A stretch of DNA of 38,489 bases, taken from NCBI GenBank assembly GCA_016866775.1, contig VGLJ01000046.1, positions 1-38,489 of the forward strand, in the 5' to 3' direction. The stretch is from Candidatus Rokuibacteriota bacterium. Its GTDB lineage: Bacteria; Methylomirabilota; Methylomirabilia; Rokubacteriales; CSP1-6. The first letter of the stretch is position 1. Each line of letters begins with the position of its first letter. The translations under genes were made by a program, and so were the position numbers. The notes below the pieces were generated by a model. That model did not search any database, had not been told where the DNA came from, and saw nothing but the letters and a program-made list of their open reading frames with translations. Shown here one piece after another: positions 1,221-38,489 of the stretch.

Positions 1221-2210
1221 TTACGCCCCCGGCGACGCGATGTTGATGCGCGTGTTGGCGCCCTCGATACGGATGTGGGCGCTGTTCGTGTCCGTGAGTG
1301 TCGGCGTGCCACCGATGAACGGGGTGCTGCCGATGGCGACGTTGTTGAAGTCGCCGCCGTTGGCCTTCGAAATCGTCACGCCGCCCGCCGTCGACTGCTC
1401 GGCCGTGGTGGTCGTCGGCGTGACCGTCGGCGGCGGCGCCAGGATGCCGGCCTGCTGCGCGCCTCCGGTGATGGTGGTGAGCAGCGTGACCGCCGTCTGC
1501 ACCTGCTGCGCCTTCACCTGTTCCTTGCCGGTGTCACCGCCGTCCTTCACCCCGCTCGGCTTGAGTCCGGACTGCGCCTGAGTCGATTCGCTCGCCGTCA
1601 TGGTCGACGTCGTCGGCGTGGCGAGGCCGGCGCCCTGGTCCTTCTGATTCGCGCCGACCGACAGCGGCACTCCGAGCGGCTGGCGCGTGCCGGGATCGGG
1701 CGGCTGCGCCGTGATGCTGCCGCGCAGGACGTAGAAGTTCGTCGGCACGGCCGGCGCGGGACCGCCGACCTGCGCGCTCCGGCGGTTCACTTCGGTGATC
1801 ACGACGGTGCCGCGCACGGCGGCCACCGCGTTCGGCGTGCGGATCTGGATCATCTCGTCCGGGCGCATCTTCTCGCGCGCCACCGCGAGCGCGAACTTGC
1901 CGGAGTCGAGGTCGATCGTCGAGCGCCCGGGCACCTCGGTGATCGTGAGCACGGAGCGCTCGCGCACGGTGACGACGGCCTTGCCGCCGAGGAGCATGCG
2001 GGCGAGCGACTTGTCGCCGGTGGTGACGGTGTCCTGCAGGAGGACGTCGTCCTTGAACTTCAGTGGCACGGGGTCGGGCAGCGCGACGCGCCGGGCGCTG
2101 ACGTTGCCTTCGAGGGTGGTGACGACACCGGCCTTCGGTTGCTGCGCGATCGCGCCCGGCGGCGCGAGGATGAGGGTGGACAGCAGAACGGCGAGAGTGC
2201 GCTTGATCAC
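1221..2210 (-). CDS. Secreted FecR-domain protein (smaller paralogue)
   Basis: The start is taken as GTG at 2210-2208, which overlaps the TGA of the upstream LLM gene in GTGTGA and has an AAGGAG ribosome site just upstream. The paralogue at 3581-5935 begins with the same MIKR-like residues. The 329-residue product has a signal peptide ending near GAIAQ, then a FecR domain of about 110 residues (GVVTTLEGNVSARR, LLQDTVTTGDKSLARMLLGG, TPNAVAAVRGTVVITEV). A Ser/Thr/Gln-rich linker and a short Asn/Gly-rich tail follow (HIRIEGANTRINIASPGA). There is no transmembrane helix after the domain and no sigma factor nearby, so this is not a classical FecR sigma regulator. It is more likely a periplasmic or surface protein using FecR as a structural module. 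Confidence 0.85.
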   Translation of the reverse strand: MIKRTLAVLLSTLILAPPGAIAQQPKAGVVTTLEGNVSARRVALPDPVPLKFKDDVLLQDTVTTGDKSLARMLLGGKAVVTVRERSVLTITEVPGRSTIDLDSGKFALAVAREKMRPDEMIQIRTPNAVAAVRGTVVITEVNRRSAQVGGPAPAVPTNFYVLRGSITAQPPDPGTRQPLGVPLSVGANQKDQGAGLATPTTSTMTASESTQAQSGLKPSGVKDGGDTGKEQVKAQQVQTAVTLLTTITGGAQQAGILAPPPTVTPTTTTAEQSTAGGVTISKANGGDFNNVAIGSTPFIGGTPTLTDTNSAHIRIEGANTRINIASPGA

Positions 2211-3427: not shown

Positions 3428-3500
3428 GGCCGCAGCAGCATACCCCAAACGCTGCCGCGCGATGCCACGCCTTCGCCGGGGTTTTTGCGGCGGCTACGGG

Positions 3501-3574
3501 GGCGCTCGCGGAGGGCCGGGATTCACTCCCGGCCCGGAGCGTGGAGGGCTTGGGGGGCCGCTAGAGGCCCCCCA
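3501..3574. repeat. Dispersed double-hairpin repeat, copy A (intergenic)
   Basis: This 74-bp element lies between the LLM gene and the stop of the larger FecR gene. It holds two perfect inverted repeats. Hairpin 2 has arms GGGCCGGGA (3513-3521) and TCCCGGCCC (3527-3535) around a 5-nt loop. Hairpin 1 has arms GGGGGGCC (3552-3559) and GGCCCCCC (3566-3573) around a 6-nt loop. The opposite strand matches 27410-27487 along its whole length, apart from a 3-nt difference in hairpin 1, a 1-nt spacer difference and a few substitutions. It starts 7 nt after the FecR stop, so in RNA it could act as a terminator or 3' stabiliser, although no U tract follows. Confidence 0.9.
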
Positions 3575-3580
3575 TCAAGG

Positions 3581-5935
3581 TCAATTGCCGGAGACGATCA
3601 GCTTGCTCGTCGCGCCGTCGATGATGACGTGCGCCGTGTTCGCGCCGGCCGACAAGTTGATGGTGGCGTTCCCGCTGTTCTTGAATGTGTTGCTGACGCT
3701 GACGTTGGCCGAGGTGCCGCTGTTCGTGAAGAAGAACTTGACCCCGTTGATCACGGCGCACGACCCGCTGCACACGCTGTTCGTCAGATTGATGGTCGCG
3801 GTGGTGCTGTTGAAGTTCACCAGGCCGCCCGAGACCTTCACGACCGAGCCGCCGGCCACCTTCAGGAGCGCGCCGTTCGAGATGTTCAGCGTGCCCCCGA
3901 TCATGCTGATCAGGTCGCCGCTGGTGATGTTGAGGAAGCTGCCGCCGGCGACATTGATCGCCGACCCGTTGCCGATCGTGAGCGTCGAGCCGTCGATCTT
4001 CACGATCGGGCCGATCGCGGTGAGCTTGGCCTTGTTCGCGAGATTGATGCCCTCCGCCGCCGTCGTCAGCGAAGCGCCGCTTCTCAGGCTCAGCAGGGGC
4101 GCGCTCGCGCTGAGCAGCGCCGTGTCCATGTGGAGACCACCGCCATCGATGGTGATGGTCGCGCCGCTCGACGCCTCGAAAAACGGGCCCGAGCCGCTGC
4201 GCACCAGGGGCTGGCCCGTTCCGAGCGTCAGCGTGCTGCTACTGCACGGCGGGAAGCACGTCTCGATGACCTCGCTCGTCGTCGCGCCGCCCCCGCCGCC
4301 GGCGTGCAGGATCGAGAAGCTCAGGATCTTGTGCGTGCCGCCGGTGAACGACAAGAACGGGTCCGTCCCGTCGGACCCGCCGATCTTGCCGCCGGCTAAC
4401 ACGAAGTCGCGCGCGCCGGTCGTGTCGAGGCCGCTGCCGGTGACGGTCCGCAGCAGGGGTGCGGTGATCGCCGTCTCGGTGGCTTCCAACTGGGCCCGGA
4501 CCGACGATGACAAGCCACCCTGCGTGAGGCGGCGGAGGAGGTTCGCGGCCTCGCTGCGTACTGCATCATCGCGCCCGCCGAGGCTGCCGACGATGCTCGC
4601 GAGCGTGACGTCGCCGCCGAGGAGGCCGGCGAGCTGTCCGGAGACCGCCTTCAACACGTTCGTGTCGTTCGAGAGCTCCTGCGCCCTCACGATCTGGTTG
4701 TTGACCGCGAGGATCGGCGGCGCCGAGGCACCGGACGGTCCCCTGCTGTCAGCGACGACCCCCCCAAAAGTGCCGACCGCGACGATCGGCGGCGCCGAGG
4801 CACCGAACCGGAGGCCGGGCATGGACGCTGAGGAGAGCTTTGTGTCGACCCCGACGACCGGCGGCGCCGAGGCACCGAACTGGAGGCCGGGCATGGACGC
4901 TGAGGGGGGCATTGTGTCGACCCCGACGACCGGCGGCGCCGAGGCACCGAACTGGAGGCCGGGCATGGACGCTGAGGGGGGCATTGTGTCGACCGGCACC
5001 CCGCGCCCCGTGCCGTCCCCGACGACCGGCGGCGCCGAGGCACCGAACTGGAGGCCGGGCATGGACGCTGAGGGGGGCATTGTGTCGACCCCGACGACCG
5101 GCGGCGCCGAGGCACCGGGCGGCGGTGGCGACGGCGGGGCCTTCTGCGGAGGCGCCACGGCCTGCGCCGCTTGTCCCTCGGTCGGGCCGCCCGTGAGCGC
5201 GGTCACGAGCGTCGTGGCCGTCCGCACGGCCTGCGCCTTCACCTGCTCCTTGCCCGCTTCGCCGCCGCCCTTCGGTCCGCTCGGCTTGAGTCCGGACTGC
5301 GCCTGAGTCGATTCGCTCGCCGTCATGGTCGCGGTCGTCGGCGTGGCGAGGCCGGCGCCCTGGTACCTCTGCATCGCGCCGACCGACAGCGGCACTCCGA
5401 CCGGTCGGCGCGTGCCCGGATCGAGCAACTGCGCCGTGATCGTGCCGCTCAGCACGTAGAAGTTCGTGCGCACCGCCGGCGCGGCACCGCCGATCTGCGC
5501 GCTCTGCCGGGTCACTTCGGTGATCACGACGGTGCCGCGAACGCCGGCGACGGCGTTCGGCGTGCGGATCTGGATCTCCTCGCCCGGCCGCATCTTCTCC
5601 CGCGCCACCGCGAGGGCGAATTTGCCGGACTCGAGATCGATCGTGGACTTGCCCGGGACTTCGGTGATCGTGAGGATCGACCGCTCGCGGACGGTCACGA
5701 CGGCCTTGCCGCCCAGGAACATCCGGGCCAGCGACTGGTCCCCCGTGGCGACCGTGTCCTGCAGGAACACTTCATCCTTGAGTTTGAGAGGGAGAGGGCC
5801 GGGGAGGGCCACGCGCCGGGCGCTGACATTGCCCTCCAGAACGGTCACCACGCCCGCTTTCGGCTGCTGGGCCGCGGCGATAGCCGGCGCGACGAGCACC
5901 GAGGACAGCATCAGGGCAAGGCAGCGCTTGATCAT
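3581..5935 (-). CDS. Large secreted FecR-domain protein with tandem repeats and beta-solenoid-like tail
   Basis: The start is the ATG at 5935-5933 (MIKRCLALMLSSVLVAPAI), matching the start of the smaller paralogue; an ATG 15 nt upstream is an alternative. The 784-residue product has a signal peptide ending around AIAAAQ and a FecR domain (about 30-145) nearly identical to the paralogue. A shared linker containing ATMTASESTQAQSGLKPSG comes next. A Pro/Ala-rich region follows with 24-residue repeats of the form GASAPPVVGVDTMPPSASM, then an Asn/Gly/Ser-rich C-terminal third (about 540-784) with regularly spaced strands such as INVAGGSFLNITSGD. The tail resembles a right-handed beta-helix as in surface passenger proteins. 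The role is unknown; an extracytoplasmic structural or adhesive protein is inferred. A sigma70-like promoter lies just upstream. Confidence 0.85.
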   Translation of the reverse strand: MIKRCLALMLSSVLVAPAIAAAQQPKAGVVTVLEGNVSARRVALPGPLPLKLKDEVFLQDTVATGDQSLARMFLGGKAVVTVRERSILTITEVPGKSTIDLESGKFALAVAREKMRPGEEIQIRTPNAVAGVRGTVVITEVTRQSAQIGGAAPAVRTNFYVLSGTITAQLLDPGTRRPVGVPLSVGAMQRYQGAGLATPTTATMTASESTQAQSGLKPSGPKGGGEAGKEQVKAQAVRTATTLVTALTGGPTEGQAAQAVAPPQKAPPSPPPPGASAPPVVGVDTMPPSASMPGLQFGASAPPVVGDGTGRGVPVDTMPPSASMPGLQFGASAPPVVGVDTMPPSASMPGLQFGASAPPVVGVDTKLSSASMPGLRFGASAPPIVAVGTFGGVVADSRGPSGASAPPILAVNNQIVRAQELSNDTNVLKAVSGQLAGLLGGDVTLASIVGSLGGRDDAVRSEAANLLRRLTQGGLSSSVRAQLEATETAITAPLLRTVTGSGLDTTGARDFVLAGGKIGGSDGTDPFLSFTGGTHKILSFSILHAGGGGGATTSEVIETCFPPCSSSTLTLGTGQPLVRSGSGPFFEASSGATITIDGGGLHMDTALLSASAPLLSLRSGASLTTAAEGINLANKAKLTAIGPIVKIDGSTLTIGNGSAINVAGGSFLNITSGDLISMIGGTLNISNGALLKVAGGSVVKVSGGLVNFNSTTATINLTNSVCSGSCAVINGVKFFFTNSGTSANVSVSNTFKNSGNATINLSAGANTAHVIIDGATSKLIVSGN
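4779..5120 (-). repeat. 72-bp in-frame tandem repeat
   Basis: Units of 72 bp (24 codons) begin at 4779, 4851, 4923, 5019 and, partially, 5091. Those at 4851, 4923 and 5019 are identical over 72 bases by eye; the one at 4779 has several substitutions, and a further degenerate unit may lie before it. A 24-bp insert (4995-5018) separates two units, so the reading frame is kept. The near identity of the copies implies recent expansion or gene conversion. Confidence 0.92.
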
Positions 5936-5980
5936 GGTCGGACCGCCCATCCGATCAGGATGAAAAACCTTTCATACCGA

Positions 5981-25888: not shown

Positions 25889-26278
25889 TCAGTCGAGGAC
25901 CGCGATGCCCTCGATCTCGACGAGAAAGTGCGGCTCGGCGAGGCCCTGCACGACGACGAGGGTGTTCGCGGGATAGGGCGGCGCGGGAAACACCTCGTCG
26001 CGCGCCGCGGCGACGAGCGAGCGATAGCCCCAGTGCGTGATGTATGTGGTCGTCTTCAGCAGGTTCCGGAAGCCGCCGCCGTAGTGCGCGAGGATCGCGG
26101 CGAGGTTGTCGTAGCACTGCCGCGCCTGCGCGCGCGCGTCGCCGATCCCCACGACCGCGCCCGACGGATCGAACGCGAGCTGCCCGGAGATGTAGAGCGT
26201 GTTGCCGGAGCGCGCGACGTGCGAGTAATGCGCTTGTGGCGGATACACGCCCGGCGGATTCTGCAGCTCGCCGGCCAT
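25889..26278 (-). CDS. RidA family (enamine/imine deaminase-like) protein
   Basis: The start is ATG at 26278, sharing one base with the amidohydrolase stop (TGATG). The 129-residue protein fits the RidA/YjgF trimer size, with HYSHVARSGNTLYISGQLAF, the middle ARAQARQCYDNLAAILAHYG, and the C-terminal FLVEIEGIAVLD. The usual catalytic Arg region reads PANTLVVVQGLAEPHFLVE; the position normally Arg (R-x-x-V) is not obvious, so deaminase activity against 2-aminoacrylate is uncertain. It could be one of the non-archetypal Rid subgroups associated with ring-degradation operons, comparable with RutC. It is the last gene of the LLM/creatininase/ABC/amidohydrolase run and converges with the frameshifted cyclase. 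Confidence 0.9.
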   Translation of the reverse strand: MAGELQNPPGVYPPQAHYSHVARSGNTLYISGQLAFDPSGAVVGIGDARAQARQCYDNLAAILAHYGGGFRNLLKTTTYITHWGYRSLVAAARDEVFPAPPYPANTLVVVQGLAEPHFLVEIEGIAVLD

Positions 26279-27666
26279 CAGGCGTTGCCGAGGAGCTCGT
26301 CCAGCTCGCGATAGTCCGGCAGCCGGCGCTCGATCGCGGCGCCGTTCCTCAGCACGACGCGATTCGACTCCGGACGCGACAGCAGCTCGCTCCACGTCCG
26401 TCCTTCGAAGAGCACGAGATCCGCCGGCACGCCGGCTCCGATGCGGCCCGCGTCCGCGAGACCCATCAGGTCGGCCGGCGTCGTCGTCACCGCGCGCGGC
26501 CAGTCGCCGACCGGGCGGTCGAGATGGCAGACGCGCGTGGCTTCGCGGAAGACCTCGAGCGCGTCGTGATCGCCGTAGCCGTGGAAGGCATCACGGCAGT
26601 TGTCGCTCGCGACGGCGATCCGGATCCGGCGCGCGGCGAGCTCGTGCAGCAGCGTGACGCCGCGCCAGCGCGGCGTGCGGCCGGGCACGCGGTCCTGCAG
26701 GTACAGGTTGCACATCGGCAGGCTGACGATGCTGATCCCGGCCTCCGCGACGAGCTGGAGCGTCTCGTCGACGATCTCGGGCGGCTGCACGGCGAGGCTG
26801 CAGCAGTGGCCGCAGACGACCTGGTTCGGGAAGCGCCGCCGGAGCACCGCGCTCGCCAGATGCGAGAGCGAGCGCGCGCCGACGTCGCCGCTCTCGTCGC
26901 AATGGAGGTCGATCGCGAGGCCGCGCTCGGCGGCGAGATCGAGCAGGCGCTCGAACAGCGCGTCGACGTCCGACGACACGTAGCCGACGGCGCCGAGGAT
27001 CCCGTTCGCCGCCGCGACGCGGTCGGCCAGCTCTTCGCCCTCACGCGTGCCGAAACGCTGGAGCGGAACGAGCGACACCCCCTGGAGCTCGACGCGACCG
27101 GCCCACTCCTTGCGGAGTCCCTCGAACACCGGCCAGCTGATCGCCGCCTGCGGACCGAGCGAGTCGAGGTTCGTCCGCACCGCCTTCGTGCCGTGCGCGT
27201 AGCTGCACTTGAGCCCGAACTCGAAGCGCTGCCGCACGTCGTCCGCTGACCAGTGCGCGCCGCGATCGGCCATCACCGCGCGGATCGCGCCGTCGAACGT
27301 GCCGTCGGGGTTCGGCGCGCGCTCCCACGTGTGGCCCTTGTCGAGGTGCGTGTGGATATCGACGAGGCATGGCCAGACTTGTCCACGTCGAAGATCGACG
27401 TGGTTGACATGGGGGGCCGCCTCTAGCGGCCCCCCAAGCCCCCCAACGCTCCGGGCGCGGAGTGAATCCGCGCCCTCCGCGACTGCCGAGTGGCCCGCGG
27501 CCGCGACCTCCGCGATCAGCGCGTCGCGAATCGCGATGTCGACGACCGTCAGGCCGTCGTCCGAGACACGCGCGCCTTCCGGTACCGCCGTGAGGAGCGT
27601 CGCCGGAACGGTCGCGTTCCTCAGCCAGTAGTTCGTCCCGCTCGGCACCGTGACGAAGCCGCTCAC
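26278..27666 (-). CDS. Amidohydrolase, cytosine deaminase-like, carrying an in-frame repeat insertion
   Basis: The start is GTG at 27666, just past the permease stop. The 462-residue protein is of the CodA-like amidohydrolase group. The metal motif PCLVDIHTHLDKGHTWE is near residue 103, IDLHCDESGD near 260 supplies another His, VVCGHCCSLA follows, and VASDNCRDAFHGYGDHD near 355 carries the catalytic Asp. It should deaminate or hydrolyse a cyclic amidine or amide in the cytoplasm. Residues 60-86, including RSVGGLGGPLEAAPHV, do not fit the family; they are encoded by a copy of the double-hairpin repeat inserted between the N-terminal beta domain and the barrel. Neighbouring ABC importer genes presumably bring in the substrate. 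Confidence 0.9.
   Translation of the reverse strand: MSGFVTVPSGTNYWLRNATVPATLLTAVPEGARVSDDGLTVVDIAIRDALIAEVAAAGHSAVAEGADSLRARSVGGLGGPLEAAPHVNHVDLRRGQVWPCLVDIHTHLDKGHTWERAPNPDGTFDGAIRAVMADRGAHWSADDVRQRFEFGLKCSYAHGTKAVRTNLDSLGPQAAISWPVFEGLRKEWAGRVELQGVSLVPLQRFGTREGEELADRVAAANGILGAVGYVSSDVDALFERLLDLAAERGLAIDLHCDESGDVGARSLSHLASAVLRRRFPNQVVCGHCCSLAVQPPEIVDETLQLVAEAGISIVSLPMCNLYLQDRVPGRTPRWRGVTLLHELAARRIRIAVASDNCRDAFHGYGDHDALEVFREATRVCHLDRPVGDWPRAVTTTPADLMGLADAGRIGAGVPADLVLFEGRTWSELLSRPESNRVVLRNGAAIERRLPDYRELDELLGNA
27410..27487. repeat. Dispersed double-hairpin repeat, copy B (inside the amidohydrolase gene)
   Basis: This 78-bp element (26 codons) aligns with the reverse complement of 3501-3574. 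Hairpin 1 has 10-bp arms GGGGGGCCGC (27411-27420) and GCGGCCCCCC (27426-27435). Hairpin 2 has 9-bp arms GGGCGCGGA (27453-27461) and TCCGCGCCC (27467-27475) around the loop GTGAA. Compared with copy A, two adjacent pairs of hairpin 2 are swapped on both arms, so pairing is kept. The length is a multiple of three and contains no stop in the host frame. Confidence 0.9.
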
Positions 27667-27667
27667 C

Positions 27668-28537
27668 TCAACCCTCGCGCTTGACCGCGCTCTCGTGCCA
27701 CTTGCGCAGGACGAGATAGGAGAGCCCGTTGAGCAGCAGGAAGATCACGATGCCGGTGCAGGTGATCATGAACAGCGCGGCGAACATGCGCGGGATCTGC
27801 ATCGTGTAGCCGGACTCGAGCACGCGATACGCGAGCCCCGACTGCGTGCCGCCCGTGCCGGCGACGAACTCGGCCACGACCGCGCCGATCAGCGCGAGGC
27901 CGCCGCTGATGCGGAGCCCGCCGAGGAAGTACGGCATCGCGCTCGGCAGCCGCAGGTACCAGAAGACCTGGCGGCGCGAGGCGCCGTAGAGCTGGAAGAG
28001 GTTCAGCAGGTTGTGGTCGGCGCTGTTGAGGCCGAGCGTCGTGTTGGACACGATCGGGAAGAACGCGACGATCCACGCGCAGATCAAGAGCGCGATCGGG
28101 ATGTTCTTCACCCAGATGATGATCAGCGGCGCGATCGCGACCACCGGAGTGACTTGCAGGATGACCGCGTACGGGAAGAGCGAGCGCTCGACCCAGCGCG
28201 ACTGGGTGAAGAGGATCGCGATGAGCACGCCCGCCACCGTGGCGACGAAGAGCGCCGCGCCGGTGATGGCGAGCGTGACGAGCAGCGACGGGTAGAGCGT
28301 GCCCCAGTCCTTGACGAGCGTCCCGATGATGAGCAGCGGCCCGGGCAGGATGTAGTAGGGGATCTCCTTCACGCGGACGAGCAGCTCCCAGAGCACGAGC
28401 ACGATCACGCCGATCGCGACCGGCGGGAGGGCGCGGCCGGCGACCGTCCAGAGATCGACGCGACGCTGCGTGGCCGGCGGTGAGTCGGCGTCGCCGACGG
28501 CGGCGCGCTTGCCTTCGATCGTCGGAACACTCGCCAT
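27668..28537 (-). CDS. ABC transporter permease (NitT/TauT type)
   Basis: This 289-residue inner-membrane protein has about six hydrophobic helices after a charged N-terminus of some 35 residues. The ATPase-contact EAA loop reads LYGASRRQVFWYLRLPSAMP followed by YFLGGLRISGGLALIGAV, typical of permeases for nitrate, sulfonate and pyrimidine-precursor importers (SsuC/ThiX type). It works as a homodimer with the ATPase and binding protein encoded directly upstream (16 nt away). The substrate follows the binding protein, which is not defined. Confidence 0.92.
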   Translation of the reverse strand: MASVPTIEGKRAAVGDADSPPATQRRVDLWTVAGRALPPVAIGVIVLVLWELLVRVKEIPYYILPGPLLIIGTLVKDWGTLYPSLLVTLAITGAALFVATVAGVLIAILFTQSRWVERSLFPYAVILQVTPVVAIAPLIIIWVKNIPIALLICAWIVAFFPIVSNTTLGLNSADHNLLNLFQLYGASRRQVFWYLRLPSAMPYFLGGLRISGGLALIGAVVAEFVAGTGGTQSGLAYRVLESGYTMQIPRMFAALFMITCTGIVIFLLLNGLSYLVLRKWHESAVKREG

Positions 28538-28553
28538 GCGCGTTACCGCCGCC

Positions 28554-29303
28554 TCACGCGCGCGTCGCCTCGGCGAGGCGCGCGGAGACGTTCCGGCAGT
28601 ACTCGTTGTAGAGGGGCGAGGTGCGGAAGCTCTCGTCGCGCGGCGCCGGCGCGTCGATCGTGACCTCGCTCGCCGTGCGCCCCGGCCGCGCGGTCATCAC
28701 CGCGATGCGCGTCGAGAGGTACACCGACTCGTACACGCTGTGGGTCACGAACACGACGGTCCACCGCTGCTTCGCCCACAGCGTGAGCAGGTCGTTGTCG
28801 AGCTTGAACCGCGTGATCTCGTCGAGCGACGCGAACGGCTCGTCCATCAGGAGGAGCCGCGGGTGCGTGACGAGCGCGCGCGCGATCGACACGCGCATCT
28901 TCATGCCCCCCGACAGCTCGCGCGGATACGCGTGCTCGAAGCCGTCGAGGCCCACCATCTCGATCGCCTCGCGCACGCGCGCGCCCGCTTCGTCCGGGGG
29001 CACGCCGCGCAGCTTCAGCGGGAGGAGGACGTTCTTCCTGACGGTCGCCCACGGCATCAGCGTCGGCTCCTGGAAGACGAAGCCGATGTCGCCTCGGCCG
29101 CCGTCCTTGGTGCCGGACCATTCGATGCGGCCGCCCGACACCTCGCCGAGCCCGGCGACCAGGCGAAGCACCGTGCTCTTCCCGCACCCGGACGGGCCGA
29201 GCAGACTCAGGAACTCGCCTTCACCCACCGCGAGATCGAGGCCGCGCAGGGCGACGACGCCGTTGCCGTAGACCTTGTCGACGCGTGAGAGTCGCGCGAT
29301 CAC
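28554..29303 (-). CDS. ABC transporter ATP-binding protein (NitT/TauT type)
   Basis: The start is GTG at 29303, overlapping the binding-protein stop in GTGA. The 249-residue ATPase has Walker [10 protein letters not shown] near residue 40, the Q-loop in [14 protein letters not shown], the signature [15 protein letters not shown], Walker [14 protein letters not shown], and the switch His in FVTHSVYES. Gln in the usual LSGGMRQR position is Lys here, a common variant. It energises uptake by the adjacent permease. The genes binding protein, ATPase, permease are in the canonical order of such importers. Confidence 0.95.
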
Positions 29304-30325
29304 GCCTTCTTCAGGTGCATGGCGTGCTTCTTGTTCACGAACTGCAGCGTGTAGGCGCGCTTGAGATCGAGATCGGCAGGATACAGACCCGCCTCGACCA
29401 TGATCGAGTGGAAGTCCTTCCAGCGCGCGTCGGTCATCGCGCCGACGCCGAGCTTCTCCGCGTCGCCGGAGTCGACGATCCCGTACTTCTTCAAGGTCGC
29501 GATGCTGTGCGCGATCTGGTCGTCGGCCATCTCCGGGTTGTCCTTCTTGATGAGCGCGTTCGCCGGGCCCGGATCGCCGTAGAGGTAGCTGTACCAGCCC
29601 TCGATCGTCGAGTTCACGAACCGCTGCACGACGTCGGGCTTCTCCTTGACGAGCTTCCACGACGTCTCCATGGTCGTCGCGTAGGTCGAATAGCCGCCGT
29701 CCGCCAGCAGGTGGACGACGATCTTCGCGCCCGCCTTCTCGATCTTGTACGGCTCGCTCGTGAGGAAGCCCTGCTGGATCGCCGTCTTGTCGGCGAGGAA
29801 CGGCGCCATGTTGAACGTGTAGGTCCGGATCTGGTCGTCGGTGTAGCCGAACTTCACGCGCAGGAACTGCCAGTACCCGGCGCGCGCGACCGGCGAGATC
29901 ATGATCGGCTTGCCCTTCATCGCCGTGAGCGAGTCGTTGCCCTGCCCGGCGTGCGCGATGAGGACCTGCGGGTCCTTCTGGAAGACCGTGCCCACGCAGA
30001 CCATCGGGATGTTGTTCTTCACGTAGTTCAGCGCGCTGAAGCAGTTCGACCCCATGTTGAAGTCGATCGTGCCGGCGGCGAGGAGCTGCGGATGGTTGAT
30101 CTGCGGGCCGCCCATGCGGATCGTCACGTCGAGGCCGGCCTTCTTGTAGATGCCCGTCGCGACGGCCTGGTAGTAGCCGCCGTGCTCGGCCTGCGCCTTC
30201 CAGTTGGTCCCGAACGTGAGCTTCTCCACGCCCTGCGCGCGCGCCGGCGCGGCGCCCCACGGACCGACCGAACCGGCCGCGGCGAGAGCGGATGCCTTCA
30301 GGAACGAGCGGCGCGTCACGATCAT
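29300..30325 (-). CDS. ABC transporter substrate-binding protein (NMT1/THI5-like), Tat-exported
   Basis: The start is ATG at 30325, overlapping the creatininase stop in ATGA with AGGAGG a few bases upstream. The N-terminus [19 protein letters not shown] is a twin-arginine signal ending around APARAQ, so it is exported folded. The mature part (341 residues in all) begins [20 protein letters not shown], then [21 protein letters not shown], the usual NMT1/SsuA two-lobe pattern. [13 protein letters not shown] resembles pyrimidine-precursor and other heterocycle-binding members; an N-heterocycle ligand is inferred from the enzymes around it. Tat export rather than Sec is notable for this family. 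Confidence 0.92.
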
Positions 30326-31188
30326 CGGCGGTCCTCCTGGTCTTTCGGTGCCTGGCGAACCTCGCGCTTCGGGCTTCGGTAGATCGCTTCGAGGAGCTCG
30401 GCGAGCCGCGCGGCCTTCGCCTCGCACATGATCTTGCCCTTCTCGGCGGACGACGGATGCGGATTGCCGATCGCGCCCGTCCGCGAGAGGTCCGACGCGA
30501 TCCACGCCTCGATGACGTCGTTGCCCTTGAACGAGTACCCGATGTCCGGCGTGGGATCGAAGATCCATCCCTCGGCGCGGTCCATGTGCACCAGCTCGGG
30601 CGTGAGATGCCGGACCATCGACGTCTCGGTGTCGCCGGAATGCATCGCGATCGCCGCTTCCGCGGGCGCGACGAGCCCGGGCACTTGCCCGATGCCGCCG
30701 AGGAAGATCTTGAACACGCGCATGTCGGTCTCGATCCGGAGATCGCGGAAGAAGTCGTCGAGCGTGCCGACGTTCCCGCCGTGGCTGCCGAGGAGGACGA
30801 GCTTCGAGAACCCGCTGCGCGCGACCGAGGTCCCGATGTCCTTGAGCACCATGCGCAGCGTCTCGCCGGAGAACGTCAGCGTGCCGGGGAAGTCATGGTG
30901 CTCGGTGCTCTTGCCGAAGTTCGTGGGCGGCAGCGCCAGCACCATCACGTCGTCGGAGAGCCGCGCGAGCGCCCCGCCGAGCAGCTCCATGCCGACGAGC
31001 GTGTCGGTGATGAGCGGCAGGTGCGGGCCGTGCTGCTCGACGGCGCCGATGTTGATGACGGCGGTCGCGTTGGGATCGCTCTTCGCGATCGCGTCGATCT
31101 CCTGCCACGTGTAGTACGCCCAGTAGCGCCGCGGCGGGATCGATCCGTGGAGCCCGGTGCCGATGGTCGGCGGCAGATCTTTCAGCAT
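30322..31188 (-). CDS. Creatininase family amidohydrolase
   Basis: The start is ATG at 31188 with GGAGG immediately before it, inside the end of the LLM gene. The 288-residue protein has the creatininase metal motifs [18 protein letters not shown] (Glu, His, Asp ligands), [19 protein letters not shown], and [19 protein letters not shown] with the later Glu/His. Members hydrolyse cyclic amides such as creatinine, or formamides in cofactor and pigment synthesis (MftE, ArfB). Its setting between an LLM oxidoreductase and an importer for heterocycles favours catabolic ring amide hydrolysis. Confidence 0.93.
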
Positions 31189-38358: not shown

Positions 38359-38489
38359 GGGCGTCTCCGTGCGCCGGTCACGCCGGCGCGGTGCAGTGAA
38401 TGAAAGTTTCATCCGGCGAAGGCATGGCGAGCCACGCCGGCCCCGAGTCATGCGCGGGCGCCCGCGAGGGCGCACGTGAAGCGTTGACA
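38359..38489 (-). promoter_or_regulatory. Upstream region of the urate operon
   Basis: This 131-bp non-coding end of the window should carry the operon promoter. A palindrome ATGAAA-G-TTTCAT occupies 38400-38412, about 42 bp upstream of the start codon, and a small inverted repeat CGCCGG/CCGGCG lies near 38373-38388. No clear -35/-10 pair is visible. The palindrome is a candidate site for a purine-responsive regulator encoded elsewhere. Confidence 0.4.

Follow-up and report, generated by a model that had tools for sequence, protein, structure and literature searches.

An in-frame palindromic repeat in a predicted cytosine deaminase gene of a Candidatus Rokuibacteriota bacterium, and the hairpin repeat family to which it belongs

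How does a conserved bacterial enzyme come to carry, just before its metal-binding motif, a peptide that its relatives lack? The question is raised by contig VGLJ01000046.1 (C46; 38,489 nucleotides, called the window here) of the Candidatus Rokuibacteriota bacterium assembly GCA_016866775.1, a genome of 5.13 Mb in 159 contigs that is 97.5% complete. A gene for a cytosine-deaminase-type amidohydrolase in this window contains, in frame, a palindromic element of about 82 bp, referred to below as copy B. We consider it highly probable that copy B arose by insertion and belongs to a non-autonomous family of hairpin-forming repeats that spread through a single family of Rokubacteria and has a minority of its copies in frame in genes.

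Copy B within the deaminase gene

The host gene and the parts of the element within it are as follows.

26278-27666, minus strand: host gene, a cytosine-deaminase-type amidohydrolase of 462 amino acids with a GTG start (open reading frame; Pfam PF07969/PF01979; NCBIfam NF005759)
27407-27490, minus strand: palindromic element copy B, in frame, residues 59-87 (best match in the genome to covariance model R1, 103.5 bits; absent in relatives)
27453-27475, minus strand: hairpin H1, GGGCGCGGA-TTCAC-TCCGCGCCC, with a 9-bp stem and flanks CGC-GGA/GGA-GCG (folding; stem covariation)
27439-27444, minus strand: unpaired, conserved run of six G within the GGGGGGCTTGGGGGG spacer (alignment; other genera retain it as GGGGGGTTTGGGGGG or a similar sequence)
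27411-27435, minus strand: hairpin H2, GGGGGGCCGC-TAGAG-GCGGCCCCCC (folding; inner-stem covariation)

A preliminary description of this DNA, made from its letters alone, had placed an in-frame repeat of 78 bp at 27400-27490, free of stop codons in the host frame and adding about 26 residues to the protein. Frame and freedom from stops hold; the exact span is 27407-27490 on the minus strand, the length is 84 model positions with a conserved core of about 82 bp, and the lengthening is slightly smaller than thought. By match lengths the host protein exceeds eight of its nine nearest Rokubacteria alleles by 22-24 residues and the ninth (L062) by 18, and it has 24 extra positions relative to the NCBIfam cytosine deaminase model, the shortfall arising because the native loop varies or lost a few residues. 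As the same description had it, copy B encodes a Gly/Pro/Arg-rich peptide, RSVGGLGGPLEAAPHV, immediately ahead of HVDL...HTHLDKGH, at a place where the enzyme family normally has a short connection: the segment is missing from nine Candidatus Rokuibacteriota alleles (70-75% identity) and from cyanobacterial and proteobacterial homologues, all of which have the short connection instead, and no equally long unrelated segment occupies the position in close homologues of the deaminase.

The rest of the enzyme appears intact. Its score of 641.8 bits against the NF005759 model (cytosine deaminase; cut-off 403, NCBIfam) and the retention of its metal-site motifs place the predicted protein in that family, and the positions HTHLDK, H255, H287 and D355 are invariant over 37 sequences (alignment A2); the earlier description had stated that all catalytic motifs remain. 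The AlphaFold2 fold resembles cytosine deaminase and AtzC. The closest named homologues come from metagenome-assembled Candidatus Rokuibacteriota, and the protein is its own genome's sole match at E<=1e-30, so that the gene is single-copy. It lies within an apparent operon (26278-31188, minus strand) with ABC-transporter permease, ATPase and substrate-binding genes and a creatininase-like gene, assigned by reading.

The structural model has a mean pLDDT (predicted local distance difference test) of 87, and residues 62-85, between the confident beta strands 50-56 and 88-91, form the only segment below 50; the copy B segment is thus modelled as a disordered, flexible loop inside an otherwise confident fold, as the suggestion of a tolerated loop would predict. 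Against four relatives, the proportions of nonsynonymous (pN) and synonymous (pS) differences are 0.21-0.32 and 0.41-0.47 upstream of the insert and 0.10-0.13 and 0.36-0.43 downstream, a sequence-based sign of purifying selection on both sides. Because the N-terminal 58 residues are conserved, have pN<pS and, in the model, belong to the folded enzyme, a translation start beyond the insert is very unlikely; such a start would also take away conserved beta strands of the deaminase.

A repeat family concentrated at gene ends

A covariance model (R1) built from 29 copies finds at least 148 copies of the element in this genome, and the true number is probably higher, since about 17 of the 96 exact occurrences of the 15-mer GGGGGGCTTGGGGGG (0 for the reversed control) fall outside the matches listed. 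With such numbers copy B is no chance palindrome. The element consists of two GC-rich hairpins with GGGGGGCTT between them and has the family consensus CGGCACTCGCGGAGGGCGCGGATTCACTCCGCGCCCGGAGCGT-GGGGGGCTTGGGGGGCCGCTAGAGGCGGCCCCCCATGTC. In the 9-bp stem of H1, 97.3% of positions are paired, as opposed to 80.1% (maximum 83.5%) when arms are shuffled between copies (n=109 copies), and 25 distinct arm combinations are fully paired; the inner stem of H2 is paired at 82.8%, as opposed to 50.0% (maximum 58%) after shuffling (n=87 copies). Pairing is therefore conserved despite sequence change, a sign that the folded form of the strand is important, whether to spread of the element or at the RNA level. 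Conservation of the flanks ends within about 10 bases of the element on either side. Any given same-strand reading frame lacks stops in 86-91% of copies, a paucity expected from the GC-rich composition. In L009, L021 and L022 the H2 loop takes either orientation (CTAGAGG-type or CCTCTGG-type), a pattern resembling inversion of the hairpin tip.

The family extends to relatives. Under stricter filters, element matches were found in 15 of 60 genomes, that is, in this genome and in 14 of the 59 relatives, all 14 being members of its taxonomic family, whereas the 24 genomes from other families gave no match; several of the 14 have just one to three weak matches. Other genera retain the architecture with a different sequence, typically ...GAGCGTTGGGGGGTTTGGGGGGCCATTTCGGGGCCCCCCAT, and in relative G030 one copy lies within a predicted gene of 690 codons.

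The position of the copies relative to genes is strongly biased, almost all of them lying at 3' ends. Among 138 copies with retrieved flanks, 45 are intergenic, 76 overlap a gene end and 17 lie inside a predicted gene, and stop codons are often within the element or a few bases from its edge. Only 2 of the 119 non-internal copies for which both neighbours were called lie in divergent gaps; among background gaps no shorter than 30 bp, 51 of 247 are divergent (P ~1e-7), and in relatives 0 of 38 copies lie in such a gap. Copies between tandem genes are mixed in orientation (32 along, 54 against), and the same-strand preference of internal copies (10 of 12) loses significance when the openness of frames is taken into account (P=0.08).

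A number of the copies inside genes are predicted to be read through, some of the protein names that follow having been assigned by reading sequences rather than from family models. Net in-frame gains, read off alignments with uninserted relatives, are seen in nine proteins: besides the deaminase, the HAMP sensor kinase (28 residues), an FAD oxidoreductase (about 27), LarC (about 25), a YgfZ/GcvT-like protein (23), LpxB (21), HtpG (Hsp90; 19, the comparison being with a single partial relative; the E. coli protein lacks the segment too), LigD (17) and a ceramidase-like protein (15). The HtpG insert stands immediately ahead of the glycine-rich GQFGVGF motif. A search of the genome for the deaminase peptide, as had been proposed, finds it in the same frame in HtpG, LpxB, the YgfZ-like protein and others, and for the six host genes searched the inserted copy is clearly the best match in its own genome.

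Elsewhere the element is predicted to supply protein ends. By reading, element-derived C-terminal tails occur in LipA, RecQ, DNA-3-methyladenine glycosylase and others; tails are predicted at L143, L171, L124, L136 and L173, in LipA, RecQ, Ddl, DNA-3-methyladenine glycosylase and an LpxI-like gene. Comparison of tails with relatives covered the C98 and C11 membrane proteins, and uninserted relatives were found for the permease C-terminal tail. L274, a membrane protein of another genus (G011), ends in a GGSGRPPSPP tail resembling that at C11:20006, which suggests that an element occupies the corresponding gene end there, by descent or through a separate event.

The window holds a second copy.

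3498-3580, plus strand: copy A, a further, intergenic copy of the element, adjoining the stop codon of gene 3581-5950 (minus strand) (model match 77.3 bits; gene calls)

A scan of the window matched its element copies to no Rfam family. The gene next to copy A is related to that at 1221-2210 (both minus strand; a shared 300-nt stretch with 85% identity) and contains 72/96-nt tandem repeats at 4770-5090. At 38403-38489 (plus strand) a group II intron begins (Rfam RF02005, 72.8 bits) and is ended by the contig edge.

Insertion and the alternatives to it

If the element has spread by insertion, it would move as a hairpin, of DNA or RNA, recognised by some enzyme, and its arrival would often delete part of the target sequence. 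Copies in promoters would be removed by selection and out-of-frame or otherwise harmful insertions presumably purged; most copies would then remain near gene 3' ends, where an insertion costs little, and within genes only those in frame and in loops would be retained, a minority contributing 25-28 codons to a disordered Gly/Pro/Arg-rich loop or C-terminal tail. The proteins would be made and would function with the extra loop. The observed distribution probably reflects selection acting on a repeat that is, or once was, mobile.

Several points weigh against this account. The own genome has no match to the Y1/RAYT transposase family (PF01797; RAYT, REP-associated tyrosine transposase; REP, repetitive extragenic palindrome), and one of eight element-bearing relatives tested (G009) has one, so that transposase and element show no association. 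No target-site duplication was detected, the longest k-mers shared by the flanks being 4.06 compared with 3.96 for shuffled pairs (n=104). The nearest comparison genomes belong to other genera, and it is there, not in the same species, that empty sites are seen; the gene calls come from a codon-bias script made for this analysis. In an acyl-CoA synthetase and a penicillin-binding protein (PBP)-PASTA linker, moreover, the native sequence of relatives is similar or longer at the site, and simple insertion cannot cover every case because there is no net lengthening in these two: judged from the alignments, native sequence was replaced by the element. The lengthening supposed earlier stands for the deaminase; two other genes of the genome show replacement. 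Gains below the 27-28 codons of the element may point to loss of some target sequence. Inverted repeats in the flanks were not above those of shuffled pairs. The only transposase gene seen on reading the genes between neighbouring copies, the IS1380-family gene L118 (C31:17929-19296; copies 3.7 kb apart), was judged coincidental.

One alternative, which we hold rather unlikely, is that the element is a REP family whose mobilising RAYT transposase has since disappeared, its intragenic copies being ordinary intragenic REPs. The distribution is as published for REPs, in tandem and convergent gaps, near stop codons, with some intragenic copies encoding 20-30 amino acids (PMC3733652), and two hairpins per unit are reminiscent of REP dimers; yet the consensus, CGGCACTCGCGGAGGGC...CCCCCCATGTC, has neither a GTAG nor a CGTC tag, and the near absence of PF01797 just described speaks against this alternative as well.

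That the element acts chiefly as a functional RNA of gene 3' ends (a terminator, mRNA stabiliser or processing signal), with in-gene copies as by-products, we regard as unlikely. The strong 3'-end bias, the covarying stems and the common architecture across genera speak for such an RNA. However, matches occur in only 14 of the 59 relatives and in very uneven numbers, the stems are not followed by a U-tract, orientation between tandem genes is mixed, the Rfam scan found no family, and selection against insertion in promoters predicts the same bias. A role as RNA is compatible with spread by insertion.

A bolder form of the insertion account, in which the element founds a new class of mobile double-hairpin repeats, moved by a non-RAYT enzyme, inserting with loss of target and regularly giving loops and C-terminal tails to Rokubacteria housekeeping enzymes, seems to us quite improbable. 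It is very improbable that the in-gene segments are untranslated through downstream starts, pseudogenes or chimeric assembly, for although the genome is a metagenome assembly of many contigs and the extended proteins are predictions, the insert is flanked, in frame, by two parts of one conserved protein in at least nine genes, and in the deaminase pN<pS on both sides and the N-terminal part folds, in the model, with the enzyme.

Comparison with known systems

Palindromes inserted in frame offer one of a small number of documented ways for conserved bacterial proteins to acquire new peptide segments. To this the present findings add an uncultured phylum, a repeat family that lacks both the tag and the customary transposase, and nine or more host proteins, Hsp90 among them, and the pairs of inserted and uninserted proteins make loop tolerance and functional change directly testable. 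A search of the open-access literature returned no relevant publication on Rokubacteria repeats.

The behaviour of the element is already known, because it has been described for Rickettsia and for intragenic REPs (PMC3733652, PMC10969869). Rickettsia palindromic elements (RPE) are palindromic repeats in frame within unrelated protein genes, to which they add a short segment (PMC10969869, PMC3733652). The likeness to them that the preliminary description drew is supported, the Rokubacteria element being palindromic and in frame in unrelated genes (nine proteins compared with uninserted relatives), and it reaches beyond Rickettsia, since in-frame intragenic REPs occur in several other bacteria (PMC3733652). 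By their published description RPE differ in being about 150 bp in Rickettsia, whereas the Rokubacteria element is about 82 bp and has two G/C-rich hairpins.

REPs with GTAG/CGTC tags have intragenic copies that encode 20-30 residues, supply stop codons and share the 3'-end bias in several bacteria, with intragenic copies in Opitutus, Thauera, Rickettsia and others (PMC3733652). Like them, the Rokubacteria element is a high-copy stem-loop that lies in tandem and convergent gaps, near stop codons or supplying them, and sometimes within genes; unlike them, it lacks the tag, has no RAYT match in its genome and is an asymmetric two-hairpin unit with an GGGGGGCTT spacer. Intragenic miniature inverted-repeat transposable elements (MITEs), such as ERIC, the QMITEs of Coxiella and similar repeats, are short, non-autonomous and able to fuse in frame with genes (PMC10969869), as is the Rokubacteria element, which departs from them in having two separate hairpins in place of an element-wide inverted repeat and in showing no detected target duplication. 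What is new here, then, is the repeat family, the phylum, the combined absence of tag and transposase, and a set of host proteins with uninserted relatives.
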